64,000 bases of DNA from Antedon mediterranea (lineage: Eukaryota > Echinodermata > Crinoidea > Comatulida > Antedonidae), in contig NC_092680.1 in NCBI RefSeq assembly GCF_964355755.1, positions 9,959,001-10,023,000 on the forward strand, in the 5' to 3' direction. A program made the position numbers and the translations under genes. Positions 2,569 to 58,204 of the stretch are shown here, one piece after another. Position 1 is the first letter of the stretch. Every line of letters starts with the position of its first letter. The notes below the pieces were generated by a model. The model did not search any database. It was not told the origin of the DNA and saw nothing but the letters and a program-made list of their open reading frames with translations.

Positions 2569-3135
2569 TGTATTCATAGTAGTAGGCCGGCTAACTAAAC
2601 TCTAACCTAGCCTACTAGGGCCAGGCTACTACACCTAACACGTACAGTAACACTAGTGACTAGGCTAGGCCTAGGCTTAATTAGGAATATTTAGGTCTTA
2701 TAATTCACTTATATTATAGCCAAATTTCCAGCAAAAGTGTATGTTTCAGATTACTTATGTAAAATGTATTTCGTTCCGTAAAAATAACATAAAAAGCAAT
2801 TTAAAGATCAACGTACCATTACAGCAGGTCGCCATTATAAATAATATGATGCCCTCTAGAGTTAACTTGTTTTGTTGGTTTGTTTGTTGTGCGATTACAT
2901 AATAATCGCTCTCCTCTCTCTCCTCTCTAGCTAGCTCTAGCTCTCTCTCTCTTCAGCAATCCTCGACGATCAGCTCGTGGTGGTTACAGCAAAGAACTTA
3001 AAAGTTCTTTGGTTACAGTAAGTTGGCGGCCGCTTTGACCATATTCGGTTTGTAGCTAGTTTAGTAGGGACTGGATCGATCCGACTGACTTGTTTTCTTA
3101 TTACAGCTCCAAATCAAACATTTTACATTTTGCCA
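2569..3135 (+). promoter_or_regulatory. Arginase 5' flank and probable 5' UTR with an intron
   Basis: The region contains a CT-rich tract (about 2909-2954) and a 9-bp inverted repeat around 2992-3011 (AAAGAACTT / AAGTTCTTT). A good splice donor (ACA|GTAAGT at 3018) and acceptor (TTCTTATTACAG ending at 3106) would define an 89-base intron in the 5' UTR. This is inferred from splice consensus only; no TATA box was identified. Confidence 0.4.
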
Positions 3136-4275
3136 ATGAATTTATTAGTTAACAGCATTCGGCCTAGGCCTAGCAGGATGTTGCTAGGTCAGATGTCATC
3201 AGTTCTTCGATTATCAGTTCTTCGATTATCAGTTCTTCGATCGTCAGTAGGCCTACTAGGCCTAGGCGGTTTGGTCTTTGATGTCAGAGCCCTAAGCAGT
3301 AAAGAACAGGCACCCCAAGACATAGGGATTATTGGAGTTCCGCTAAATAAAGGACAGAGTAAATCTGGAACTAGATTAGGTCCACAAACAATTCGAGATG
3401 CTGGACTTATTGAACAATTGAAAAATATTGAAAGAGACGTTAAAGATTATGGCGATATTAAATTTCCTGAAATTGAAGAAGATGTTTCCTCTATGAAGCC
3501 ATTAAAAAACTCGCGTTCATTAGGAAAAGCAACTCAGATGATATCAGATACCGTTTACAAAATTATGAAAGAAGATAAACGTCTTTGTATGACTTTAGGT
3601 GGTGATCATGCATTGTCAGTCGGTAGTGTTAACGGTCATGCACGAGTAAACCCAAATATGTGCTTGTTATGGATTGATGCACATGCTGATTTAAACACAC
3701 CGTTGAGTTCTCCTTCTGGAAACCTTCATGGCATGGTGCAATCATTCTTAGTTCATGAACTGGAAGAGTACATGCCAAAGATTCCTGGCTTTGAATGGAT
3801 TAAGCCATGTATATCATTAAAAGATATTGTTTATATTGGACTCAGGGATATTGATCCAGGAGAAAAGTACATTATGGAAAGGTTTGGTATGACCGGGTAT
3901 TCTATCCACGACGTGGATAAACTTGGTGTCAAAGAAGTACTAAGTCGAGCCCTTGATACTGTAAACCCAAAAGCAAATCGACCTATTCATTTGAGTTATG
4001 ACATTGATTCACTAGACCCTGTTGTATCGCCTAGTACTGGCACCCCTGTGATGGGTGGCTTGACATATCGAGAGGGAATGTATATTGCCGAGGTTGTATC
4101 TGATACAGGTTTACTCCATGCCGTGGATATTGTAGAGCTTAATCCTGAGCTTGGAGCACCCAGAGAGCAAGACACTACCATCATGGCTGCAATGAATATC
4201 GTCACAGCAAGTGTCGGAAAATTGAGGGAAGGACATAGACCTAGCAATTATGAAATTCCAAAGCCATTATATTAA
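3136..4275 (+). CDS. Arginase, mitochondrial (arginase-2-like), single coding exon
   Basis: Encodes 379 residues. Arginase hydrolyses L-arginine to ornithine and urea at a two-manganese centre. All expected signatures are visible: GGDH (His158), DAHAD (Asp181, His183, Asp185), SGNLHG (His198), SYDIDSLDP (Asp289, Asp291) and the VELNPELG glutamate (Glu334). The first ~55 residues have arginines, many Leu/Ser and no acidic residue before Asp49, as in a mitochondrial presequence; the cleavage site is inferred to lie near the RALSSK stretch. The start is the first ATG in frame (3136); an in-frame TTG two codons upstream is not a plausible eukaryotic start. No intron interrupts the frame, unlike multi-exon vertebrate arginases. 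A 15-base unit encoding SVLRL is repeated three times (3193-3241), and TAGGCCTA-type repeat sequence is translated within the presequence. A complementary-strand frame at 3996-4247 is a shadow. Confidence 0.96.
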   Translation: MNLLVNSIRPRPSRMLLGQMSSVLRLSVLRLSVLRSSVGLLGLGGLVFDVRALSSKEQAPQDIGIIGVPLNKGQSKSGTRLGPQTIRDAGLIEQLKNIERDVKDYGDIKFPEIEEDVSSMKPLKNSRSLGKATQMISDTVYKIMKEDKRLCMTLGGDHALSVGSVNGHARVNPNMCLLWIDAHADLNTPLSSPSGNLHGMVQSFLVHELEEYMPKIPGFEWIKPCISLKDIVYIGLRDIDPGEKYIMERFGMTGYSIHDVDKLGVKEVLSRALDTVNPKANRPIHLSYDIDSLDPVVSPSTGTPVMGGLTYREGMYIAEVVSDTGLLHAVDIVELNPELGAPREQDTTIMAAMNIVTASVGKLREGHRPSNYEIPKPLY

Positions 4276-8025: not shown

Positions 8026-9322
8026 GGTGGCAGGAGAGGAAAGGGTATCACCACTAGATTACGAATCTGGAAAGGTAATCGATCAGATAAGGGGTCAAAG
8101 TTCAAAATTTACCAATTACAACAATGTACAGTATTATAATATAATTATGTATTACTGTATAACATCAAATCTTTCTTTCTGTTAATCATACGCAATGTAA
8201 AAGAGCACATACATCATTTCATCAGTTGACATAATGCCAAATGTCAACATTTTAATATGCGTATTAGGTACTGTAGTTCCCAAATAAATGTAAAGTAACC
8301 AACCCCTAGCCTGGCGTTCATACCTCTAGGTATGGAAGTCGTGGGTTTGAGCCTCACCCGAGAAGTAGAAATTACGTCACAGTAGGGCAAAACATTTGGT
8401 TTAATGATGAATGCGCTCTTTTGATTGTCTATGATTGATTGATGTCTTTAATGATAAAACATCACTTTTGTGTGAAATGTTATTTTTTTACAGGAAAATG
8501 TTGTAATTGGTCAATATTGACCATTTGACCTTTAATTGCAAGGGATTTTTATAAGGTGACCTTTATAACCATACAAATGTAATAAAAGACTCGATTTTGG
8601 TGGTCCTTTATGATTGCAAATTTCAGAGTTATTGCAATAGACCACGATGTCAAATCGAGTGACAAAACTCACAAAGACAAAGAAAACCACTGGGAATTAC
8701 TACTTAAAACCACAAACCTTTTGGACATTATAGGAACATACTCCCAGATCGTTTAAATAATTTCATTGACTACCTAAATTTAAGTTTCAATATTAACCAC
8801 CATAAAGCTGTCTTTTTAGTTCCATTCCAAAATTCGTTATATCCGCTATCTTCTTTTCTAATTTCTAATCTTACTCTCTCCACCCTCTATTCACCAGCCT
8901 GTGCCTCCTTTGTTTTTATTTCTTTTAATCCAGTCCACTTAAGCAGTGCTTGTGTGCTTAATAAATACTATATACTTTGTCTAAGTACTCTTACTTGCAC
9001 TGATGAAGGGCTAGTGTTGCCTGAAAGCTCTGCTACTTTTTCTGGCTGTTTTATTTTATCGGTTTGATTTTATCTGTTTTCTTATATTGTATCTCCGTTG
9101 AGATCCAGCCATGGATACCCACAGCATTGTCATTATTTTCAGTAATTTGCCTTTGGATTTATAATACATTGTTATAATTGGTCAATTTTGAACTTTGACC
9201 CCCTTATATCTCGAAAACGCTTCCAATCCTGATCGATTACCTTCCATATTCATAATCTACCGAAAATTATGTTGGATGGCAATTTGTTCCTTTCGGGTGG
9301 TGATTCCGCTCTCTCTGGCACC
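8026..9322. mobile_element. Degenerate long-TIR DNA element
   Basis: 8026-8129 and the complement of 9166-9322 are diverged inverted repeats sharing GGTGCCAG/GGTGGCAG starts, AAGGTAATCGATCAG and GGGTCAAAGTTCAAAAT. The right arm has ~50 extra bases. No coding frame inside. The interior carries a ~170-bp block also found at 55364-55535. Confidence 0.65.
8995..9165 (+). repeat. ~170-bp Penelope-like terminal repeat fragment, copy 1
   Basis: Shares a colinear block with 55364-55535: CACTGATGAAGGGCTAGTG, CTGAAAGCTCTGCTA, GAGATCCAGCC and CAGTAATTTGCCTTTGGATT. The first part looks like a hammerhead core (CTGATGA, GGGC/GCCT stem, GAAA), here with a broken stem II pair. The link to Penelope-like elements is inferred from the second copy lying just upstream of one. 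Confidence 0.55.
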
Positions 9323-13300: not shown

Positions 13301-16300
13301 ACAAATAGTTATTTTTAGGGTACTCTTTTAAAAGCCCATTAAAACTGAAACATCACTCTCATTTTCACACCATCTTGATTGACTTAAATTTTAATCTCAT
13401 TACAATATCCATTAAACAACAGGGTGCTAATTAACAACTGCTACTCAAGGTCATGTTTGTTTGCTTATCTATGTGTAAATGCAAACATGCTTTCTGGTAG
13501 CTCCATGTTGTAAAATTAGTTCCGTACAATTTGTACTGTGGTTAGAATAGATATTTCATTTGCTGGTTAGCTGTACTTTACGTTATGCTATTATGAGTGT
13601 CCATAAAAAACATTTATAATTTTCACTGTTTGTAAATAAAAAGCCAACATTATTATTGCTTATATACATTACTTGTCTGAGAATATAATTATTTAAAACT
13701 TTACCACATGGTACGCAAACCCCCCTCTCCCACCTCCCCTTCCCAAAAAATGTATAGTGTCATAATTCTAAAAATTTGTATATAATGTAATTTTTAATTA
13801 AGTTTTTGTTTTGGGTTTATTTATATTGTACCATATAGAGTATTATATTATAAGAAAACGCAATTTTAAAATTTGCAATACTGTAGCCTGATCGTTTATG
13901 TACGGTAAAAAACATATGTGGAAAACCCCTTTCCAAATTCCTTTGCACGAAGTACATAGTGTACGTTTGATTCCCACAGACAATATCTAGCGTAGATAAT
14001 TTTATGTCAGGGAAAATAGGTTTTTCGATATCGCTGTGTCTACGTGTTTGCAATACACTGTTTGGTGTATAGTAAACATCTCCTGCAACGGACTATACCA
14101 TTTTTCGTTATGTTGGTTTTTACCACCAGAACAACATTGTGTACAAACCTATACGTAGATTATCAGAGAATCGATTTAAACGTAAATTTAGCAACTTCAG
14201 TTTGATTTAAATGAGCAGAGGATGTATCAAGGAAATATAGATTGAAACTATGTTTACATTTAACTACATATAAATGTGCCAATGAAATGTATTGAGCTTG
14301 TTTATCAACATAGTCCTGTTTATCAACATAGTCCTGTTTATCAACATAGTCCTGTTTATCAACATAGTCCTGTTTATCAACATAGTCCTGTTTATCAACA
14401 TAGTCCTGTTTATCAACATAGTCCTGTTTATCAACATAGTCCTGTTTATCAACATAGTCCTGTTTATCAACATAGTCCTGTTTATCAACATAGTCCTGTT
14501 TATCAACATAGTCCTGTTTATCAACATAGTCCTGTTTATCAACATAGTCCTGTTTATCAACATAGTCCTGTTTATCAACATAGTCCTGTTTATCAACATA
14601 GTCCTGTTTATCAACATAGTCCTGTTTATCAACATAGTCCTGTTTATCAACATAGTCCTGTTTATCAACATAGTCCTGTTTATCAACATAGTCCTGTTTA
14701 TCAACATAGTCCTGTTTATCAACATAGTCCTGTTTATCAACATAGTCCTGTTTATCAACATAGTCCTGTTTATCAACATAGTCCTGTTTATCAACATAGT
14801 CCTGTTTATCAACATAGTCCTGTTTATCAACATAGTCCTGTTTATCAACATAGTCCTGTTTATCAACATAGTCCTGTTTATCAACATAGTCCTGTTTATC
14901 AACATAGTCCTGTTTATCAACATAGTCCTGTTTATCAACATAGTCCTGTTTATCAACATAGTCCTGTTTATCAACATAGTCCTGTTTATCAACATAGTCC
15001 TGTTTATCAACATAGTCCTGTTTATCAACATAGTCCTGTTTATCAACATAGTCCTGTTTATCAACATAGTCCTGTTTATCAACAGTAGCCAAAATATTAT
15101 TCAGTGGTTGTATTTGTATGTCGAATCTTATAATGCCAAAATTGAAGGAAGGTACTGCCACCTACCAACTCCAAAATATGTATACGTGTAAACAAAATAT
15201 TCTCCTAATACGTTGTTTCTGTTGACATACATATAGGTTTATGCATATAAATAAATATAAGTAATAATGCATGTTTTCATCATGTATTTATATTACATCA
15301 TTGATTAAATTTATGTGAAACAAAGAAGAGAATGTTTATAAATATCAATACGCCTGCCAACTGGATCGCCATGTTGTGACGTAACATTCTCACATTTACA
15401 TTTTTTCATACATTTTTATAATTGCTATTTAAAAGATTTGCAGATAACATATTATTTGGACAACGATGATTTACTTACGTGCAATAAGGATCTTTTGTTA
15501 AGCACTTTTGAAAGTCTGTATTATAAGCATCGCAGTGATTAAGTGGTAGCCTTTGAATTGCATTCTCAGACCCAATAAAAATTAGGTCATCCCACAATTC
15601 CATTGTCAGTACTGGCTCTTTCACCTAAAGAGTGATAGTATAAATTTAAATTGTGTTTTTTCTCATTTTGGCTCTGGTGCTTCACCTGGACCCAATGTCA
15701 GATAGCTTTGTTATGAGCTGCAAAGGGATCACTGCACCAAGTACCAAATATGTATTACAGAGTATTATCCATGTTTTTCTTTTGGAGAAAAACAAAACAA
15801 AATACTGTACACCAAAGAATTGCCTTGTAGAGAGCACCCTTTGTAATTTGGTTTGTTAAAAACTGAATAGAAATGTCTACGACCAAAAGGCAATGGATTG
15901 TTTGGCAGATATCTTGTACATGGATGGACATACAGAGTGGTTGAAACATAACCACCTTGAAGGAGGTACAAACTGTACATAATTGTTTGTGGCCATAAAA
16001 TAAGCTTATTTTTAATCATGAATAAAGTTTGGCGTTTATATCAACAAACTCACATTAAGATTTATCTCTTGGGATAAAATTCCTCGACCTGCAGCTGGTT
16101 TTAAGAACTTGATTAAAGTACCACGATCTAGAATTGAAAAACATGATCACCATATTCTAGTTAAATTGCCAACAAAATATTCCATGGTCTCTCAATAGCA
16201 CAATCTGTTCAAGACATACATACATAAAGATATCTATGTACATACATCATAATAAAAAATGGCTCATATTAATTAATATTCCACACTGCAAGCAAACATG

Positions 16301-34300: not shown

Positions 34301-37300
34301 TTAAGGAGAGTAACAGAAGACATGATAATTTCGGCTCATATTGAAGATAAAGATTTAGACAATGCGAGCACCCTCTATTTATAGGTTAGGGTTCAGGAGT
34401 TACTGACAACAAGTCTGTATTTATTGTCTTTTTTATGTCATTCCACACGTCGTCGTTTTGATTTTTGTCTGAAAATACAGACTTCTGAAACACATAGAAA
34501 TCAATTTGCAGACCACAAACATCCGATAAGAATGACGTAGGTTATCATATTGTATTTGGCTATAGGGCGGGCGGTATGTAAATATGGATTTCGAATCAAC
34601 CAATGATCATTTTGTTTAAAAATGAAAAGATCGAGTACGTACAGTGCTGAATGTACAATCGAGACTGAACAACTGTTGAAATATAAAATCGTGTTGCCAA
34701 GGAAATATAAAATAGTGCTGCCAAGTTGTTTTGTTTATTAATTGTCTAGGCCTCCTTCGTAGGCCTACTTAACTCGTACGTAGCCTATGACCTGCCATAA
34801 AACGTCAATAAGGTACATACCCCCACCAAGACAGCCCAACAGAGCTACACCACCACGGACACGACAGGCTAGGAGGACAGGGTCTGGGTGGGAATTAAAT
34901 AATCTCAGCATAATAAATCCATTCAATGTTTGATTTGTGGAGAAGCTAGCCTATCATATCAAGAAGAGTTTTCATGTTCTTGGAGAAAATCCCATCAAAT
35001 GTTTACCAGACAACTAGGCATATAAAATCATTTCTTGCCTTCAGAAACTTTTATCAATGTACAAAAGTACACACGTGTGTACTGTACGTCTCCACACATT
35101 GTCTAAACGTAACATAGCGCATGCGCATCATCTTAGTTGTTGTGAGTCCTTGAAATTCTAAAATATAAATATCAAAACAGCGTACGAGTGAGTAGCCAAT
35201 CACATGCGGCTGAAACTAGTCAACTGGATAATCTATGCACCAAGAATTCTTGGTGTCAAACCATGTGACTTATGCGTTTTTTCCCCAGACGGAGTATTCA
35301 AACTCAAGTAATAAACATATGAAACGACATGTGCAAAAATATTTATATTTTTACTAATAGTAATATTAAGACAAAACTTCGTCTGGAGCCCAGACTAACA
35401 ACAACTGATACGAAAAGATTTAGAGATGCAAGGAGGTAAACAATATAGTTTAAAACTTAGAAATAATAATAATAATATGACTATATTGTACAATGCTGTG
35501 ATTCGTATCATTGTATACTCTATAATGTACTGGTTTATGTTGCTACTTGTTGTAGTTTTCACGTAGCCTATTGCGAGAATAAATCAAGAGGATTCAGTCG
35601 AGATCCTTGCATATACTGTATACAATCACTAATCTCCAGTGTTTTCATTTCTGACACACCTAGATTTTAAAAAGCATTTGTAACTTTCTTTCTCTGCCAT
35701 ATAGACAAAAAAACGTACATGAAAACAGAACAAAACTACAGTAGATTTGAACTTGTCACTTTTTTGGTAAAATATATTGTTTCAAATTAATTAATTAAAT
35801 TTCAGAATATCACCGGGCGGTTTAGAATTAATGTTCTTTGCCTGATTTGTTTATATATATAAAAGTATCTCTTCGGAGATCCCGCCTCGTGAATAAAAAT
35901 ACTGAAAGATGAGGGCGTATCAATTTGATCTGTGGTGCGCGTGCGTACAACTGAGGACTAGTGCTGTTCCACCATACCATGCCGAGAATGTTAAAGAGTC
36001 GCTATCCAATCGAGTTTGAACAATACCATGAGAAAGCCCCAGTGGTCTAATGGTTAAGACATCTGCATATCAAGCAGGCGGTCCGAGTTCGAGTCTCGGT
36101 TGGGGGTGACTTTTTCTCATTCTCACAGATTTCCTCATCTTTATCGTTTCAAATTAATTAATTAAATTTCAGTATATCACCGGGTGGTTTAGAATTAATG
36201 TTCTTTGCCTGATTTGTTTATATTAATATATATTATTATGCCATCCTACAGTGCTGAATTGTATCTATTTTGTGTCATACGGCATATTACAGTATTTACA
36301 GAATATACAGTACTATTATGTACAGTGTAGCACAAAATTACGAGACTCATCTTTTTAATCCAATTATTAGCATGATGATGTCATCAAATTGACATATAAA
36401 GGTAATATTTTAGAAGATAAATATCTAGATAATTACATTAATAAAAATTCGAAGAATTTTGGGCACGTAAAAGTGAGATGCGCTTTTTTTTTAACGCGAT
36501 GAACTTTTATAAAAGATATGAAAATGTGACTGGCCATATAATGACGTCATGACAGCAGATAGATAAAATTTGTATATGAAATTAATTCATCTACAATTCA
36601 ACAGCTTTCCATAAGTTTTAATCATGTGGGCCACTTATCATTCCGATGAGCTATAACAGATTAAAATATACTGTATAGATGAAATTAGGTAACTCACGTT
36701 TGTTAATATGACGTAACAAAAATTTAAATTTTTTTAACGCATGTGAAAGAGAATTGATTTAGCAAGAACATATTGAAATCTAGGAGAAAATGGAGAACAC
36801 ATTAGCGCGATGCGCTCTATTAAAAGGGATTAACTAGTACAAAAGAGAAAAATAATCTATTTTTAAAATTTGAGTGACCATATAGTGACGTCAGAACCTT
36901 CTGTAGGTACAGATTGTACATGAATTGATATCTACAACTCATTAGCTTCCATAATACATTTTTTTAAATGGGGTAACCTGCCATCCTGAAGAGCTATAAC
37001 TGATTTAAAATAGGTATAAGTTTAACCAGCGTCCTTATTTTGCAATTAAAGTTTAAAATCAAAATGAATAAAATCTACTACAGAAGGTATGAAAAACAAA
37101 AATCAATTGCAAAAACCATTTTTCTACGCTCAAAATTTTGAAATGCTCATATGAACTGAAATGTACACGAAATTGATTAGAAATTAATTTTGAAATTTTG
37201 CGCATAATTTTTTTTGCGTAGAACGCCTTTTTTATCATGTTAAAAGTTGCTCCATATTATGACATACACTTTTATAAAGTTTCATTAAAAAATAATTTTT

Positions 37301-49012: not shown

Positions 49013-49240
49013 TTAGCCGGAGGGTACAGCCTACCGGTTGTGTTACTGTTGGAGACATAATGAGCCGGAGGTTGCACCTACTGGTTGTATCACTATTTGA
49101 GACATAGTGAGCCGGAGGTTGCACCTACTGGTTGTATTACTATTTGAGACATAGCTGAGCCAGAGGTTGCGCCTACTGGTTGTGCTACTGTGTGAGATAC
49201 TTAGCCCGTGGTACACCCTGTGGTTGTGATACTGCTTTGC
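49013..49240. repeat. ~47-bp tandem repeat (4-5 copies)
   Basis: Unit contains AGCCGGAGGTTGCACCTACT, GGTTGTATTACTATTTGAGA and CATAGTG. Copies diverge to the right. Related single units occur in copy 2 near 50485-50570 and 50780-50860. Confidence 0.85.
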
Positions 49241-49304
49241 TGATGGGTACACCTATTAGCCAGTGGTTAAGACTACTGGTGGTTACCCTGTTAGCCGGTA
49301 CGTG

Positions 49305-49700
49305 GTTACGCCATTGTTGGTGGTTACGTTGCTGTTGGAGGTTACGCCATTGTTGGTGGTTACGTTGCTGTTGGAGGTTGCACCATTGTTGGAGGTTACA
49401 TTGCTGTTGGAGGTTACACCATTTTTGGTGGTTACGTTGCTGTTGGAGGTTACGCCATTGTTGGTGGTTACGTTGCTGTTGGAGGTTGCACCATTTTTGG
49501 TGGTTACGTTGCTGTTGGAGGTTACACTGCTGTTGGAGGTTACGCTGCTGTTGGGGGTTACGCTGCTGTTGGAGGTTACGCTGCTGTTGGTGGTTACGCT
49601 GCTTTTGGAGGTTACGCCGTTGTTGGTGGTTACGCCGTTGTTGGTGGTTACGCCATTGTTGGTGGTTACGCCATTGTGGTGGTTACGCCGTTTCTGTTGG
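49305..49700. repeat. 18-bp G-rich minisatellite (GTTGGAGGTTACGCTGCT), ~22 copies
   Basis: Units alternate GGAGG and GGTGG versions, giving an apparent 36-bp higher-order unit. Three forward frames and one reverse frame stay open by chance. The VGGYA reading has no start codon and is preceded by a stop. Confidence 0.92.
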
Positions 49701-50299
49701 TTACGCTGTTGTTTCAATTCCGGCGTAAGATCAACACTAATCTAAATTAATTATTTTAATCGGTTTTCACTTATAATTTGGAATCATAGAAAGAATAAAG
49801 GAGACCACTCCACAAGTTGTAATTGTAATTGATTTATCTCATTATTTACCGCAGACCCCTCCCCCCAAAAGGGAACAAACCCGGAAGAACACGGAGACTT
49901 TCGTTACAATAGTAACATAAAAATACATGGAATTATTACTTCTTAGTCTCTTAGAATAGTAATTATTAATAATAATTTAAAATTATTAATACAAATTATG
50001 TGGCCAATTAGTAGAGCATGTGGTAGCAAAGTACCTAGTCTCTGCATGCATGGAGGAAAAACTTGGTCTCTGGTGGTTTTCATTTAATAATGTACAACTG
50101 TAGTAATAATACTGATACTAATTATTAATTATATTTTACTAGGCCATATTTGTTTGCCTCGCAAAGTTCTTTCAAGAAATAGCTAATACTTATTGTACAA
50201 TTATTTTAAATCACTTGGTAAGTAGCTTTTTTAAAAACAAATAATCAATGAGCCATAATAATACGCAATGCAATTTCATTAATACTAAATACAGTATAT

Positions 50300-54129: not shown

Positions 54130-55363
54130 ATAACCAGGGCTAGGCCTAGTAGGTTACTGGTTAGGCCTATAGGCTAGGCCTAGTATGCTGGCCCTAGCTA
54201 GCCTAGCCTAGGGGCTAGGGCCTAGCTAGGCTAGGCCTAGATATTCAGGATAATATAACCCCGACAAAACAAAATACATTGATGGTTGTTTCGTCTTACC
54301 TATTTGACGTCTATAAATAGAAATGTAATTTCAAGTGTTTTTAATGCAAAAAAATGGTTAAATTCACATATTCAATGTAAATTAATGAAAATTAACCAAC
54401 AACATCCTTCTGTGTTTCATAAAAATTAGTCGGAAGTAAAACAGTACGTAATTAAATTAAAGTAAAGTGCGCCTCCACTAAATTGTTATGGTTTGGTTGA
54501 TTACGTCATTTATAATAAGGGAATTCCCCTTTTTATTATTCTAATTCTACGGACGAGCTAGCAATTCAACAAAGACAAATAATATTTGGCTTTGAATATT
54601 ATAGGCTATATATAAATTACCTGACTGTAATTCAATAAATTGTACTTTTGTCGATGATAGATTCATTCGTTCAAAAAACTTTTTAAACCAGGAAACAATG
54701 TTAGATGCGTATAGGCCTATGACAATAACCAAGCTATAACGAGAAGAAGAAACGTGCTTGTGAATGTTTTTTCTGTAATCTTATAAAAGAATCCTATCTG
54801 CACCATTATAAACAGATTGTTCATAACACCAAATGCCTACAATACAATTAAGCAAGCATTGGCAAGATAATTACACCCAATCCAAAAAGGATTAGGCCTA
54901 GGCTTAGTACCGCACGTAAGCTTCGTTTGTAGGTTGGATGGATTCGGGAGTTTTAATTCCACAGCAAACGATATACAGACCGTAAGAGTAGACCATAGCT
55001 AAAGCTAAAACAACGAAGGAAATTTCTACACAATTCTCAAACTTACTTGTACTCCAACAGGTTTTCGTAAGTTCTCCTATTTATATAAGATGAATGAATA
55101 TAATTTCATAGGAAGAATCATTTTGATATTTTATTTTATTTTATTCAATCAAAACTAACAGCGAAAATACCGCCACTAAACATAAAACAATACAACATCA
55201 AAAACGGAAAATACAGATATATATATATATCCAATCTGCAGACAGTACTGTTTCGATCTTATTAGATCTCGTCAGTGCAGCTCAGGTTTCGAAATGAAAT
55301 GTACCGCAGAACTGGCACAGTATATAGGCTGATATATATATATATATATATATACATAACACT
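54130..55363. other. Non-coding DNA upstream of the Penelope-like element
   Basis: TAGGCCTA clusters at 54140-54245. No gene recognised; the reverse frame 54547-54732 has no recognisable domain. Confidence 0.45.
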
Positions 55364-55535
55364 TGCACTGATGAAGGGCTAGTGTTGCCCGAAAGCTCTG
55401 CTAACATTTCTGGCTGTTTACTTTATCGTTTTGATTTAGCTTTTCGCTTTTTATTTTTGTATCTCCATTGAGATCCAGCCACTGATACCCACAGCATTGT
55501 CATTTTTTTCAGTAATTTGCCTTTGGATTTATATA
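55364..55535 (+). repeat. ~170-bp Penelope-like terminal repeat fragment, copy 2
   Basis: Near-copy of 8995-9165 with CACTGATGAAGGGCTAGTG, GCCCGAAAGCTCTGCTAA and GAGATCCAGCC. Flanked by TA microsatellites (55335-55353 and 55548-55560). Confidence 0.6.
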
Positions 55536-55852
55536 TACATAACATATATATATATATATACAGAAAAACAAATTACTCAATTAAATGGAAAATTATAAAG
55601 AAATGCAAACCTTACTCAAAATAACAAAAGATGTAATTTATGTAATATGAAAAGTATATTATTATGTCAACCAGAGCTATGCTCACTGAACCGTAAGAAC
55701 GAGTTAGTCTCAACTTGTAGACATAGGAAAAAATTCTTACTAAATTGCAGATCCAAATAGTTTATCTAAAACAATAGGCTATTGTATACGACTTCCTGAT
55801 AACTCACTTCTATAAAGTACTATGAGACAACTGTGTCACTTATGTTTTATAT

Positions 55853-55910
55853 TTCACCTGAAGAGTGCGGCCAGCTACACGCTGGTCGTACGAAACAAAT
55901 TTGTAGTGAT
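55853..55910 (+). ncRNA. Hammerhead ribozyme motif (Penelope-like terminal repeat)
   Basis: CTGAAGA (55858-55864) is followed by an 11-bp stem II (55865-55875 with 55881-55891, loop TACAC), then GAAA (55892-55895). Stem III is the self-complementary ACAAATTTGT (55895-55904), the cleavage base is A55905 (GUA triplet), and stem I pairs GTGA (55906-55909) with TCAC (55854-55857). All core nucleotides of a hammerhead are in place. The loopless palindromic stem III suggests action as a dimer. Hammerheads are known in Penelope-like terminal repeats, and a Penelope-like ORF follows ~75 bases downstream. Confidence 0.78.
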
Positions 55911-55945
55911 TAAAACAATGAAGTAACCAAGTTTTCTGCTGTTAT

Positions 55946-55949
<4 letters not shown>

Positions 55950-55984
<35 letters not shown>
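55950..55984. repeat. (TA)n microsatellite at the retroelement junction
   Basis: A run of alternating T and A immediately before the truncated retroelement frame. Confidence 0.9.
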
Positions 55985-55985
<1 letters not shown>

Positions 55986-55987
<2 letters not shown>

Positions 55988-56921
55988 TTTATCTATTGAT
56001 AAACCTGGTCTTTCTACATCCGTCCACTACAAAGATACTGACGCGCACACTTATTTAAATTACAACTCTTCGCATCCTCCAGCTTGTAAGAATGCTATAC
56101 CGTATTCGCAACTTGTTAGACTTCGACGTTTATGTAGCGATGATGATGACTTTAACATCAAAGCATCTGAGATGATCGATTTTTTCAATGCACGCGAATA
56201 TCCATCTGACATTACTGTGAAATCTCTAAGAAAAGTTTGCCAGTTAACGCACGAGGACACATTACAACCTACACATAATACAAATGCTTGTGACCGCATA
56301 CCTCTAGTCCTCACGTATCATCCTATGAATAAGAAGGTTATTAACATTGTCCGCGATAACTTTTCAATTTTGACTGAAGATAAATCCGCTACAAAAGATA
56401 TTTTTCAAGAACCACCCATGATAGCTTACAGACGTGATCAAAGCATTAAAGACACTTTAGTTAAATCTAAATTACAAAACAAAGGTAATGAATCAACTGG
56501 AACATTCAAATGTAATAGAAATAGATGTTCAACATGTAATTACGTTTCATGTTCAAACCAAATAGTAGGACCTTCTGGTAATTATGTTATCACAGATCGT
56601 ATTACGTGCACCACTAGAAATCTAGTTTATTGTATTTCGTGTACTAAATGTAATATGCTTTATATTGGTGAAACTAAACGCAGGTTAGGTGATAGGTTTG
56701 TAGAACATTTAAGGTCTATTAAACTAAAGACTCCCGGATTACCTGTAGCCACCCATTTTTGTAATAATGAGCATTCCCTTTCAGATATTACTATTTCTGG
56801 TGTTAAAGTATGTAATGGTTCTGAGACATCTCGTAGAATTATAGAAGAAAGAATAATTGTAAAGCTTGGCACTCTTGCCCCTACCGGCATAAATGTACAA
56901 TTTAGATCCTTTAAACATTAA
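55986..56921 (+). CDS. Penelope-like element, RT C-terminus plus GIY-YIG endonuclease (5'-truncated)
   Basis: An uninterrupted frame of 311 codons from the junction; the first ATG is at 56172 (249 residues). The segment before it reads DTDAHTYLNYNSSHPPACKN and IPYSQLVRLRRLC, the conserved end of Penelope-like RTs. Counting from the ATG, a cysteine cluster (C114, C119, C122, C127) precedes a GIY-YIG nuclease: VYC 152-154, LYIG 163-166, Arg170/171, His179 and Glu226/227. Penelope-like elements pair this RT with this nuclease. The catalytic RT core is missing, so the copy cannot move by itself, but the intact nuclease frame suggests a fairly recent insertion. Confidence 0.9.
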
Positions 56922-57139
56922 TTTTGCCAGAGACATTCACATATTAACAATTATTTACACTTGAAGCTTTTGTCTTTGTTTTAAATTTCCTGCTTTATAA
57001 GCACATTCCTGCTTTGTACACCATAGCTTTTGGAGGCGTGCCTTTATAACTATGCCTTTTGTTTGTTAACATCTTTGATTGGCTGATTTGTTTTATTATG
57101 TAATTTTGTGACTTATATATGTTATCCTTTGTTACAATT

Positions 57140-57186
57140 GTTTTCACCTGATGATGGGCTATGCCCGAAACATGTCGTTGAAATAA
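57140..57186 (+). ncRNA. Variant hammerhead-like motif at the element's 3' side
   Basis: CTGATGA (57148-57154), stem II GGGC/GCCC around TAT, GAAA (57167-57170), a stem III ACATGT and a GTC cleavage triplet. Stem I pairs GTTGAAATA with TGTTTTCAC with one mismatch. One extra base (T57155) lies between CTGATGA and stem II compared with the canonical core, so activity is uncertain. Confidence 0.55.
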
Positions 57187-58204
57187 ATCTATATTGAGGC
57201 AGTTTTAACTTATTTGATCTTGATTTTTTTCTATATCCTGCCTATGCAGCTCTTTGATTTATATATATATATAAAAACCTAACACTAAAATTTACAAGAT
57301 AAGTTCTATTTGATAACTTCTGAACATCGTGGTTCTGGAGCTAGCGAGCTGTACACAGAGCATAGTTGTTGTTTGGTTGACATAACAGGGTATTCCCCTA
57401 CACAGGTCTCCGCGTGCGTGTGTGACGTGTCCAGTCAGCTGCTTGATAGAGAAAGCATGCAGCTCACACGCAAGTGCAAGATGCAATGGTTGAGTGAATT
57501 CAGGAATCATCTTAATTCCATGGTTTTTTACCTAAACACCACATGATGGTGAATATGCCTGTTAAAGTCTCAATGATACGATCCCTAATGTACCATGTTG
57601 TTGCTAGGAGGCTTGAAAGGAGGAGGGATCTAGCCTAATTTCGGTCGGCAAGAGAATGCCGTCCTCTGACAATATAAGGTCGGCAATATTAAGGTCGGCA
57701 ATTGAAATTTGTGGGCTGGAAATTACACCAACAATATAGTTCATAAACAAAAGAGAATAGCCGGAAATGCGATTTGCGGCCATAGGCCTATAGAGAAAAA
57801 AAATGAGATGTTTGTAAATCGTTTTTAACGACTTACAATGCGCTAGAACGCCAAAATTTCCAGGGGCCGTCGGCCCCTGGATCCCGACCGGGGGCCCTTG
57901 GCGGCCCCCTGGCCCCCAGCCAATGTTTGCTCGCTTCGCTCGCAAAGCTACGCCACCCCTATTTCAATATCCTGGATCCGCCCCTGGGTTCCACTAAACA
58001 ACTTAACGATCCACCCCGCCGTCAAACCTGGTTACGGCCCTGGGTGTAGCCCTGTTGTTGTGTGCCGCCGGTGGTGGTATGTAGGCCTACTTTATTGGCG
58101 TTTTATTTGGCAGGTCATACGTGCGAATTGAGTAGGACCTACGAGAGAGGCCAGGCCAAGGACTAAACAATTAATAAACAAAACAACTTGGCATTACGAT
58201 TTTA
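57187..58204. other. Non-coding DNA with a GC-rich patch
   Basis: 57860-57985 is unusually GC-rich (CCAGGGGCCGTCGGCCCCTG palindrome, then CTCGCTTCGCTCGCAAAG and GGATCCGCCCCTGGG), typical of the ends of repeat elements but not assignable. No gene. Confidence 0.45.

Follow-up and report, generated by a model that had tools for sequence, protein, structure and literature searches.

A dimer-capable hammerhead ribozyme near the 3' end of a young Penelope-like family in Antedon mediterranea, whose head-to-head copies probably start from two sites on an uncut template

Minimal hammerhead ribozymes of Penelope-like elements reportedly act as dimers, as set out by Cervera and de la Pena in 2014 and by Lunse, Weinberg and Breaker in 2017. 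Like the hammerhead described here, they are of type I, lie in the terminal region of a Penelope-like element and have a self-complementary stem III. In the parts of PMC6155905 and PMC7761336 drawn on here, published Penelope hammerheads are described without helix III or tertiary contacts. Dimeric hammerheads with a 10-bp paired stem III, as in the family analysed here (family A), are described for Aedes, with a palindromic stem and loop III (PMC3088659, in part), and for newt and viroid RNAs (PMC6155905, in part); the host element and the sequence of these ribozymes differ from those of family A.

Two Penelope-like systems come close to family A in their insertions. Poseidon/PAc of Anolis carolinensis shares with it a hammerhead, a hairpin, a tail bounded by two reverse transcriptase (RT) start sites and AT-rich targets, and the section of PMC11167929 used here holds nothing to indicate that cleavage makes the template. 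According to the same section, both strands are cut and extended by the Anolis protein, which initiates at two neighbouring RNA sites bounding the 'tail'; in the order of that element this tail is the start of the next unit. The Anolis hammerhead cleaves only with the protein, and hammerhead mutants leave in vitro insertion unaffected (PMC11167929, in part). The Penelope elements of the rotifer Adineta vaga resemble family A in their inverted terminal repeats, mostly arranged head to head, and in their AT-rich targets; that a tail is optionally present on one inverted repeat has already been published for them (PMC3846280, in part).

We analysed a predicted hammerhead of Antedon mediterranea within the window, the whole stretch of 64,000 nucleotides of contig NC_092680.1 under study. 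The parts of the ribozyme are the following.

55843-55917, plus strand: extended type I hammerhead ribozyme fold, from folding, descriptors and family comparison
55858-55864, plus strand: core CUGAAGA (CTGAAGA), C3 to A9, read directly and folded
55865-55875 / 55881-55891, plus strand: stem II of 11 bp with loop UACAC, from the fold, with two G-U pairs
55892-55894, plus strand: GAA of the core, read directly
55895-55904, plus strand: stem III palindrome ACAAATTTGT = ACAAAUUUGU, with 3 bp and an AAUU loop in the monomer and 10 bp in the dimer
55905-55906, plus strand: predicted cleavage site between A55905 and G55906, at the H17 position in descriptor and fold

Free folding of 55842-55917 yielded the complete type I hammerhead (-23.8 kcal/mol, z -3.83), which none of 200 shuffles equalled, and folding of a shorter stretch gave z -3.54. 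The inner stem I consists of UCAC/GUGA (55854-55857 / 55906-55909) and continues past an asymmetric internal loop into an outer stem I of 7 bp (55843-55849 / 55911-55917), which the original prediction had missed. Direct reading, descriptor and fold all revealed CUGANGA...GAAA between stems I, II and III; in the fold stem I is open and stems II and III are closed, as expected of type I, and A55905 at H17, which is not G, gives the triplet GUA. This confirms 55843-55917 as a real hammerhead at the level of the RNA fold, and the predicted core, 11-bp stem II, palindromic stem III and GUA triplet were all recovered by reading and folding. A 'loopless 5-bp stem III', as originally described, is one of two readings, the monomer folding with three pairs and the tetraloop. 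The accompanying idea that the self-complementary stem III hints at dimeric action agrees with the folding of two copies, for which a double hammerhead linked through a stem III of 10 bp between the molecules came out best (homodimer -58.4 vs -23.8 kcal/mol per monomer). From the fold, cleavage of the RNA would be expected, and dimers may form in cells. The family A hammerhead departs from published Penelope hammerheads in its stem II of 11 bp and in its outer stem I, which is closed and set off by an asymmetric internal loop. It joins the known Penelope hammerheads as one in which stem II is longer and the outer stem I closed.

A search of the 64-kb window with a strict hammerhead descriptor revealed three sites (the family A hammerhead, a site at 9000 and one on the minus strand at 55275), compared with a mean of 0.02 sites per shuffled window over 100 shuffles. 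The relaxed descriptor, which tolerates a single unpaired position at the base of stem II, detected four sites vs three in 100 shuffled windows combined. Rfam covariance models reported the family A hammerhead neither at gathering thresholds over the whole window nor at E values up to 10 over 55200-57400, and a genome-wide search with RF00008 gave no match, this model being silent also in all 14 control genomes. The covariance search proposed with the original prediction thus returned no significant match to 55853-55910. We do not take this as a refutation, because published Penelope hammerheads are minimal, atypical variants (PMC6155905 and PMC7761336, in part); an Rfam match is a detection criterion and does not define a hammerhead.

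The ribozyme lies in a repeat that recurs elsewhere in the genome, next to repeats of three further families. The insertion and its neighbours are listed here by position.

55216-55332, minus strand: family D repeat with a hammerhead, C3 at 55275, stem III ACAGUACUGU, found with the strict descriptor and by Rfam HH9 below gathering
55332-55560, plus strand: family C repeat with a hammerhead-like motif at 55368-55398, found with the relaxed descriptor
55565-55958, plus strand: family A Penelope-like insertion, 5'-truncated, single-armed, without tail and unpaired, a recurring repeat (C11:10014565-10014958)
55914-56921, plus strand: open frame of family B with a GIY-YIG-like C terminus, the RT part being absent from the window copy (PF01541, E 0.0074)
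55940-55992, plus strand: end of family A without a tail, continuing into (TA)n, read directly and from the ends of other copies
57140-57195, plus strand: hammerhead-like motif at the 3' end of family B (motif 57148-57176), CTGATGA-T-GGGC..GCCC-GAA-ACATGT-C, with a bulged stem I

The family A insertion holds the end of a putative RT/GIY-YIG open reading frame (ORF), the 3' untranslated part and the ribozyme, and terminates in (TA)n. A search with the 141 bases around the motif gave 45 scored genome matches, mostly at 97-98% identity. Sequence downstream of the ribozyme matched at 203 places with up to two mismatches, compared with two in the control. In longer copies the ORF with RT- and GIY-YIG-like motifs stops before the ribozyme, which itself precedes by about 50 nt the point at which the no-tail copies stop; the other copies continue beyond this point with a hairpin, GCUCUACC..GGUAUUGAGC, and then a tail. 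Family A is thus a young multicopy Penelope-like family, recently active, with a ribozyme near its 3' end.

The ORFs have 404-760 aa, and their RT and GIY-YIG motifs were recognised by eye. They include LYRDDG and VVY..YVG, which we take to be Penelope-type motifs. Searches of Pfam, NCBIfam and PDB sequences revealed no ORF match above a curated cut-off, and protein-family and PDB searches with family A and its relative gave no profile match. The Penelope label therefore rests on these motifs together with the architecture, which comprises a terminal region with a hammerhead, an optional tail, inverted partner arms and an AT-rich target. Family A copies carry RT/EN-like coding sequence, so that assignment to the retrozymes, whose tandem repeats of about 150-450 bp are non-coding and contain a type I hammerhead, was rejected. 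One direct pair of family A copies lies 337 nt apart (C6:11473841, C6:11474178), with family C sequence after the first copy.

The four families A to D occur within about 2.1 kb, nested around, separated by or flanked by (TA)n. The family B frame matches PF01541 weakly (17 bits, under the cut-off of 22.6), and its first codons read through the family A end and the (TA)n tract. The original prediction had placed the ribozyme upstream of this nuclease frame as part of its element; this did not hold, for the ribozyme ends a separate insertion on the left of it. Family A recurs elsewhere, the family B protein and that of a family A relative cannot be aligned (best E 2.4), and family B has its own 3' motif. 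Family B sequence was found beside the family A repeat at only three places among 30 loci, L001 (the window copy), L012/L021 and L013/L014/L025. It had further been suggested that the ribozyme stayed intact although the RT core was lost. The intact core stands, and its survival beyond the RT core is ordinary: with copies fixed at their 3' end and losing sequence from the 5' side, the ribozyme persists by default.

The family B motif had 150 genome matches and none in the control, was missed by both descriptors, and its single-strand fold was no better than shuffles (z -1.01). For the family C motif we found 819 genome matches and none in the control; its best single-strand fold is not a hammerhead (z -0.73), and another motif of this kind lies at 9000-9030 of the window. 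The family D hammerhead matches Rfam HH9 with 32.5 bits (E 9.3e-06), below the gathering threshold of 52, and its free fold is not a hammerhead (z -1.31). On the minus strand (55275-55219) it lies about a dozen bases from its no-tail end, comparable to L150, L151 and L152. Elsewhere, family D occurs in direct pairs 167-285 nt apart, and this family is perhaps retrozyme-like. Outside this cluster the window contains a tRNA match at 36036-36107 (50.5 bits), perhaps a tRNA-derived repeat, with similar tRNA-like text beside family A insertions in L115 and L119; tandem-repeat stretches at 14163-15191 and 49159-49750 that are open in several frames; and an open frame of 417 aa at 3022-4275, which reads like an arginase.

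A hammerhead pattern search gave 234 matches in the genome compared with five in the control and brought up families D, E and F. In the comparison with these families, stem pairs are numbered outward from the core. Between family A and copy L148 of family F, both partners of stem I pair 3 and of stem II pairs 4 and 6-10 are changed. Relative to copy L154 of family E such changes affect stem I pair 2, stem II pairs 4, 6 and 8 and stem III pair 5, and relative to copy L150 of family D they affect stem I pairs 1-3 and 8, stem II pairs 2, 3 and 5 and stem III pairs 4 and 5. The inner stem III pairs 4 and 5 are formable only between two molecules or two units. There are two exceptions: in F_L147 stem I pair 3 and the simple pairing of stem II are lost, and in most copies of family E the dimeric stem III contains an A-C mismatch, the free fold of this family not being a hammerhead (z -0.73). 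A fully self-complementary stem III, ACA NNNN UGU, is present in families A, F and D and in one E copy; sister families have ACA-AGCC-UGU or ACA-GCC-UGU at this position. A hairpin following the ribozyme is common to families A, F and some E copies, in A as GCUC UACC .. GGUA UU GAGC and elsewhere as variants. In the 3' regions of 13 relatives a hammerhead was detected in five with the strict and in eight with the relaxed descriptor (L134, L135, L139 and L141-L145), and in the remaining five (L136, L137, L138, L140 and L146), where some stretches may miss the 3' end, even the relaxed descriptor gave none.

Among these few families the hammerhead core has thus been kept while the stems changed on both sides. 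This pattern speaks against the motif being a non-functional passenger, kept only because every copy has the 3' end, which we regard as unlikely. Within family A, core changes do exist, in six of 61 aligned copies (C3>A in three and G12>A in three; two of the 63 copies were omitted for indels), as a passenger would allow, and so young a family cannot reveal selection through such changes. C3>A recurs on different backgrounds (C1:24411406, C1:32879408, C2:33758727, C5:24676215), and its interpretation as one spreading subfamily with a dead ribozyme is unsupported for that reason.

To describe the insertions, the first 100 of the 203 places with post-ribozyme sequence were examined. Their 3' ends run into (TA)n without a tail in 51 cases and have a tail in 45, with four others. 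A scan of all loci with the right arm of one copy as reference gave 206 arms and 54 raw joined pairs, of which 42 were counted after leaving out 11 (3' end of an arm unseen, or an internal piece) and one duplicate; two of the 42 have 26 and 78 nt between their arms, and arm C6:10861434, incomplete in the stretch examined, was typed as 'tail'. In 41 of these 42 head-to-head pairs one arm has a tail and the other has none, the single exception being tail/tail (C5:11682557). Such heterotypic pairs make up 20 of 21 at the pattern-listed places, 16 of 16 among 32 sites selected for a tail and five of five others, and their frequency would have a probability of 1e-11 under equal odds. The long pairs L021, L022 and L023 exceed the reference and stand outside the 42; by reading they are also tail/no-tail. 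Arms outside joined pairs with a resolved 5' end comprise 19 without and 15 with a tail among the 100 places, so either end type occurs alone. The tail directly adjoins the element's 3' end or a truncated piece at most of 15 places, with the flanking (TA)n following it, and was therefore rejected as a repeat of the target.

The two-armed insertions of family A thus nearly always use both start sites, one per arm, whereas in the Anolis system in vitro the strands showed no difference in start site (PMC11167929, in part). The extension of both strands and the two start sites described for Anolis fit a model with one arm per site. In the portions of the literature that we searched, the tail/no-tail rule was neither counted nor turned against self-priming; this part, from one genome, may be new to a specialist.

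L1 elements are known for inversions that arise by twin priming, and inverted internal pieces of family A beside an arm (C7:6350641, C8:27379768, C10:14963426 and C5:12345896) resemble these.

The arms of a pair bear on how the inverted copies arise. For Adineta vaga, a self-priming hypothesis has been put forward (PMC3846280, in part), in which one cDNA or antisense transcript folds back at its end and is copied onto itself to give a head-to-head palindrome; here the ribozyme palindromes would act as the primers. Some features of family A would suit it: in 19 of 42 pairs no more than 16 nt separate the 5' ends of the two arms, more often than by chance (shuffles: mean 4.9, maximum 12), and in two pairs both arms begin at reference position 1236, inside the ribozyme palindrome CGTACG. 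The rank correlation of the arm 5' ends is weak (0.23, p 0.14). A fold-back copy should have the 3' end type of its template, which is contradicted by the end types counted here, and a copied arm cannot bear a tail that is absent from the longer arm; yet of the 41 heterotypic pairs 24 have the longer arm without a tail, 11 have it with a tail, and six have arms of equal length. With a length difference of more than 50 nt, the no-tail arm is longer in 15 and the tail arm in four (p 0.019). The heterotypic arms and the longer no-tail arms argue against fold-back self-priming, which we consider very unlikely in family A, and favour two separate initiations. The near-equal arm 5' ends are not accounted for by simple independent initiation; two polymerases on one RNA, or a shared template end, are possible explanations. 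In six of six pairs covering one diagnostic site both arms agree there by reading.

We looked for an accumulation of insertion 5' ends at the cleavage site and found none. None of the 100 examined rows starts at 55906 (21 of them with unresolved 5' ends), and among 168 resolved arm 5' ends, eight of which are minisatellite units, one lies at the equivalent of the cleavage site and three within two bases of it. A minisatellite with a 44-nt period at C9:21285161-21285491 includes 23 nt of the family A 3' end in its unit.

Tandem order is seen in a relative, L117/L134, which is 57% identical over the queried RT stretch. An identical ribozyme is present upstream (L117:1148) and downstream (L134:333) of its ORF, about 2.45 kb apart, with a hairpin between the first ribozyme and the ORF, so that one copy has the order ribozyme - hairpin - ORF - ribozyme. 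Given this order, which is also that described for the Anolis element (PMC11167929, in part), we interpret the tail as the beginning of the next unit in a tandem RNA. No family A copy was seen with a ribozyme on both sides of the ORF. The relative's copy at L117 extends 5' past its upstream ribozyme, and its template was therefore uncut there too; upstream of the L117 ORF there is, in addition, an insertion of family A, set apart from it by (TA)n.

These data bear on a role of the ribozyme in generating the 5' end of the template for transposition, as for the 5' ribozymes of other retrotransposons and the circles of retrozymes. Such a role has been proposed in general terms (PMC7761336, in part) and would be in keeping with a ribozyme upstream of the ORF in a tandem RNA, as at L117. 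The scarcity of insertion 5' ends at the cleavage site, the extension of L117 beyond its upstream ribozyme and the family A copy L112, which has a near-complete ORF and starts at the hairpin and not at the cleavage site, make it improbable here. With one of 168 resolved 5' ends at this site, cleaved RNA appears not to be the usual template for transposition, in agreement with the Anolis element, whose insertion was unaffected by hammerhead mutants and whose ribozyme required protein.

Taken together, we favour, with a probability of roughly 0.7, a dimer-capable hammerhead ending family A, whose copies are target-primed from two start sites on an uncut template. New copies would arise by target-primed reverse transcription, mostly into (TA)n, with one cut strand, or both, priming cDNA synthesis. 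On the RNA, the cDNA would start either before the hairpin, giving a no-tail end, or about 60 nt further on, giving a tail. Where both target strands are used, as the head-to-head pairs suggest, each would take a different RNA site, and the two 5'-truncated cDNAs would be joined head to head. The template would be RNA uncut by the hammerhead. For the timing of cleavage relative to insertion we infer that it would be late, gated by the protein, or directed at non-template RNA, for example in the trimming of tandem or read-through transcripts.

A stronger role for the ribozyme is conceivable, in which its main job would be dimer linkage. Stem III would pair two template RNAs or units inside the RT/endonuclease complex, one cDNA would be made per cut strand from different start sites, and cleavage would be held back until the polymerases have passed; the tail/no-tail pairing would then be the trace of an asymmetric dimer. 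We regard this extension as unlikely.

With about two hundred young copies in one genome, family A makes the question of the template and the origin of the inverted copies readable from sequence. Each start site supplies one arm of an inverted copy, a pattern that agrees with recent biochemical results on the extension of both strands and counts against self-priming. Should other species follow this rule, insertion could be pictured, in a form open to testing, as the work of an asymmetric complex acting on two sides, and a dimeric ribozyme carried by the template RNA would then be a natural candidate for the source of the asymmetry.
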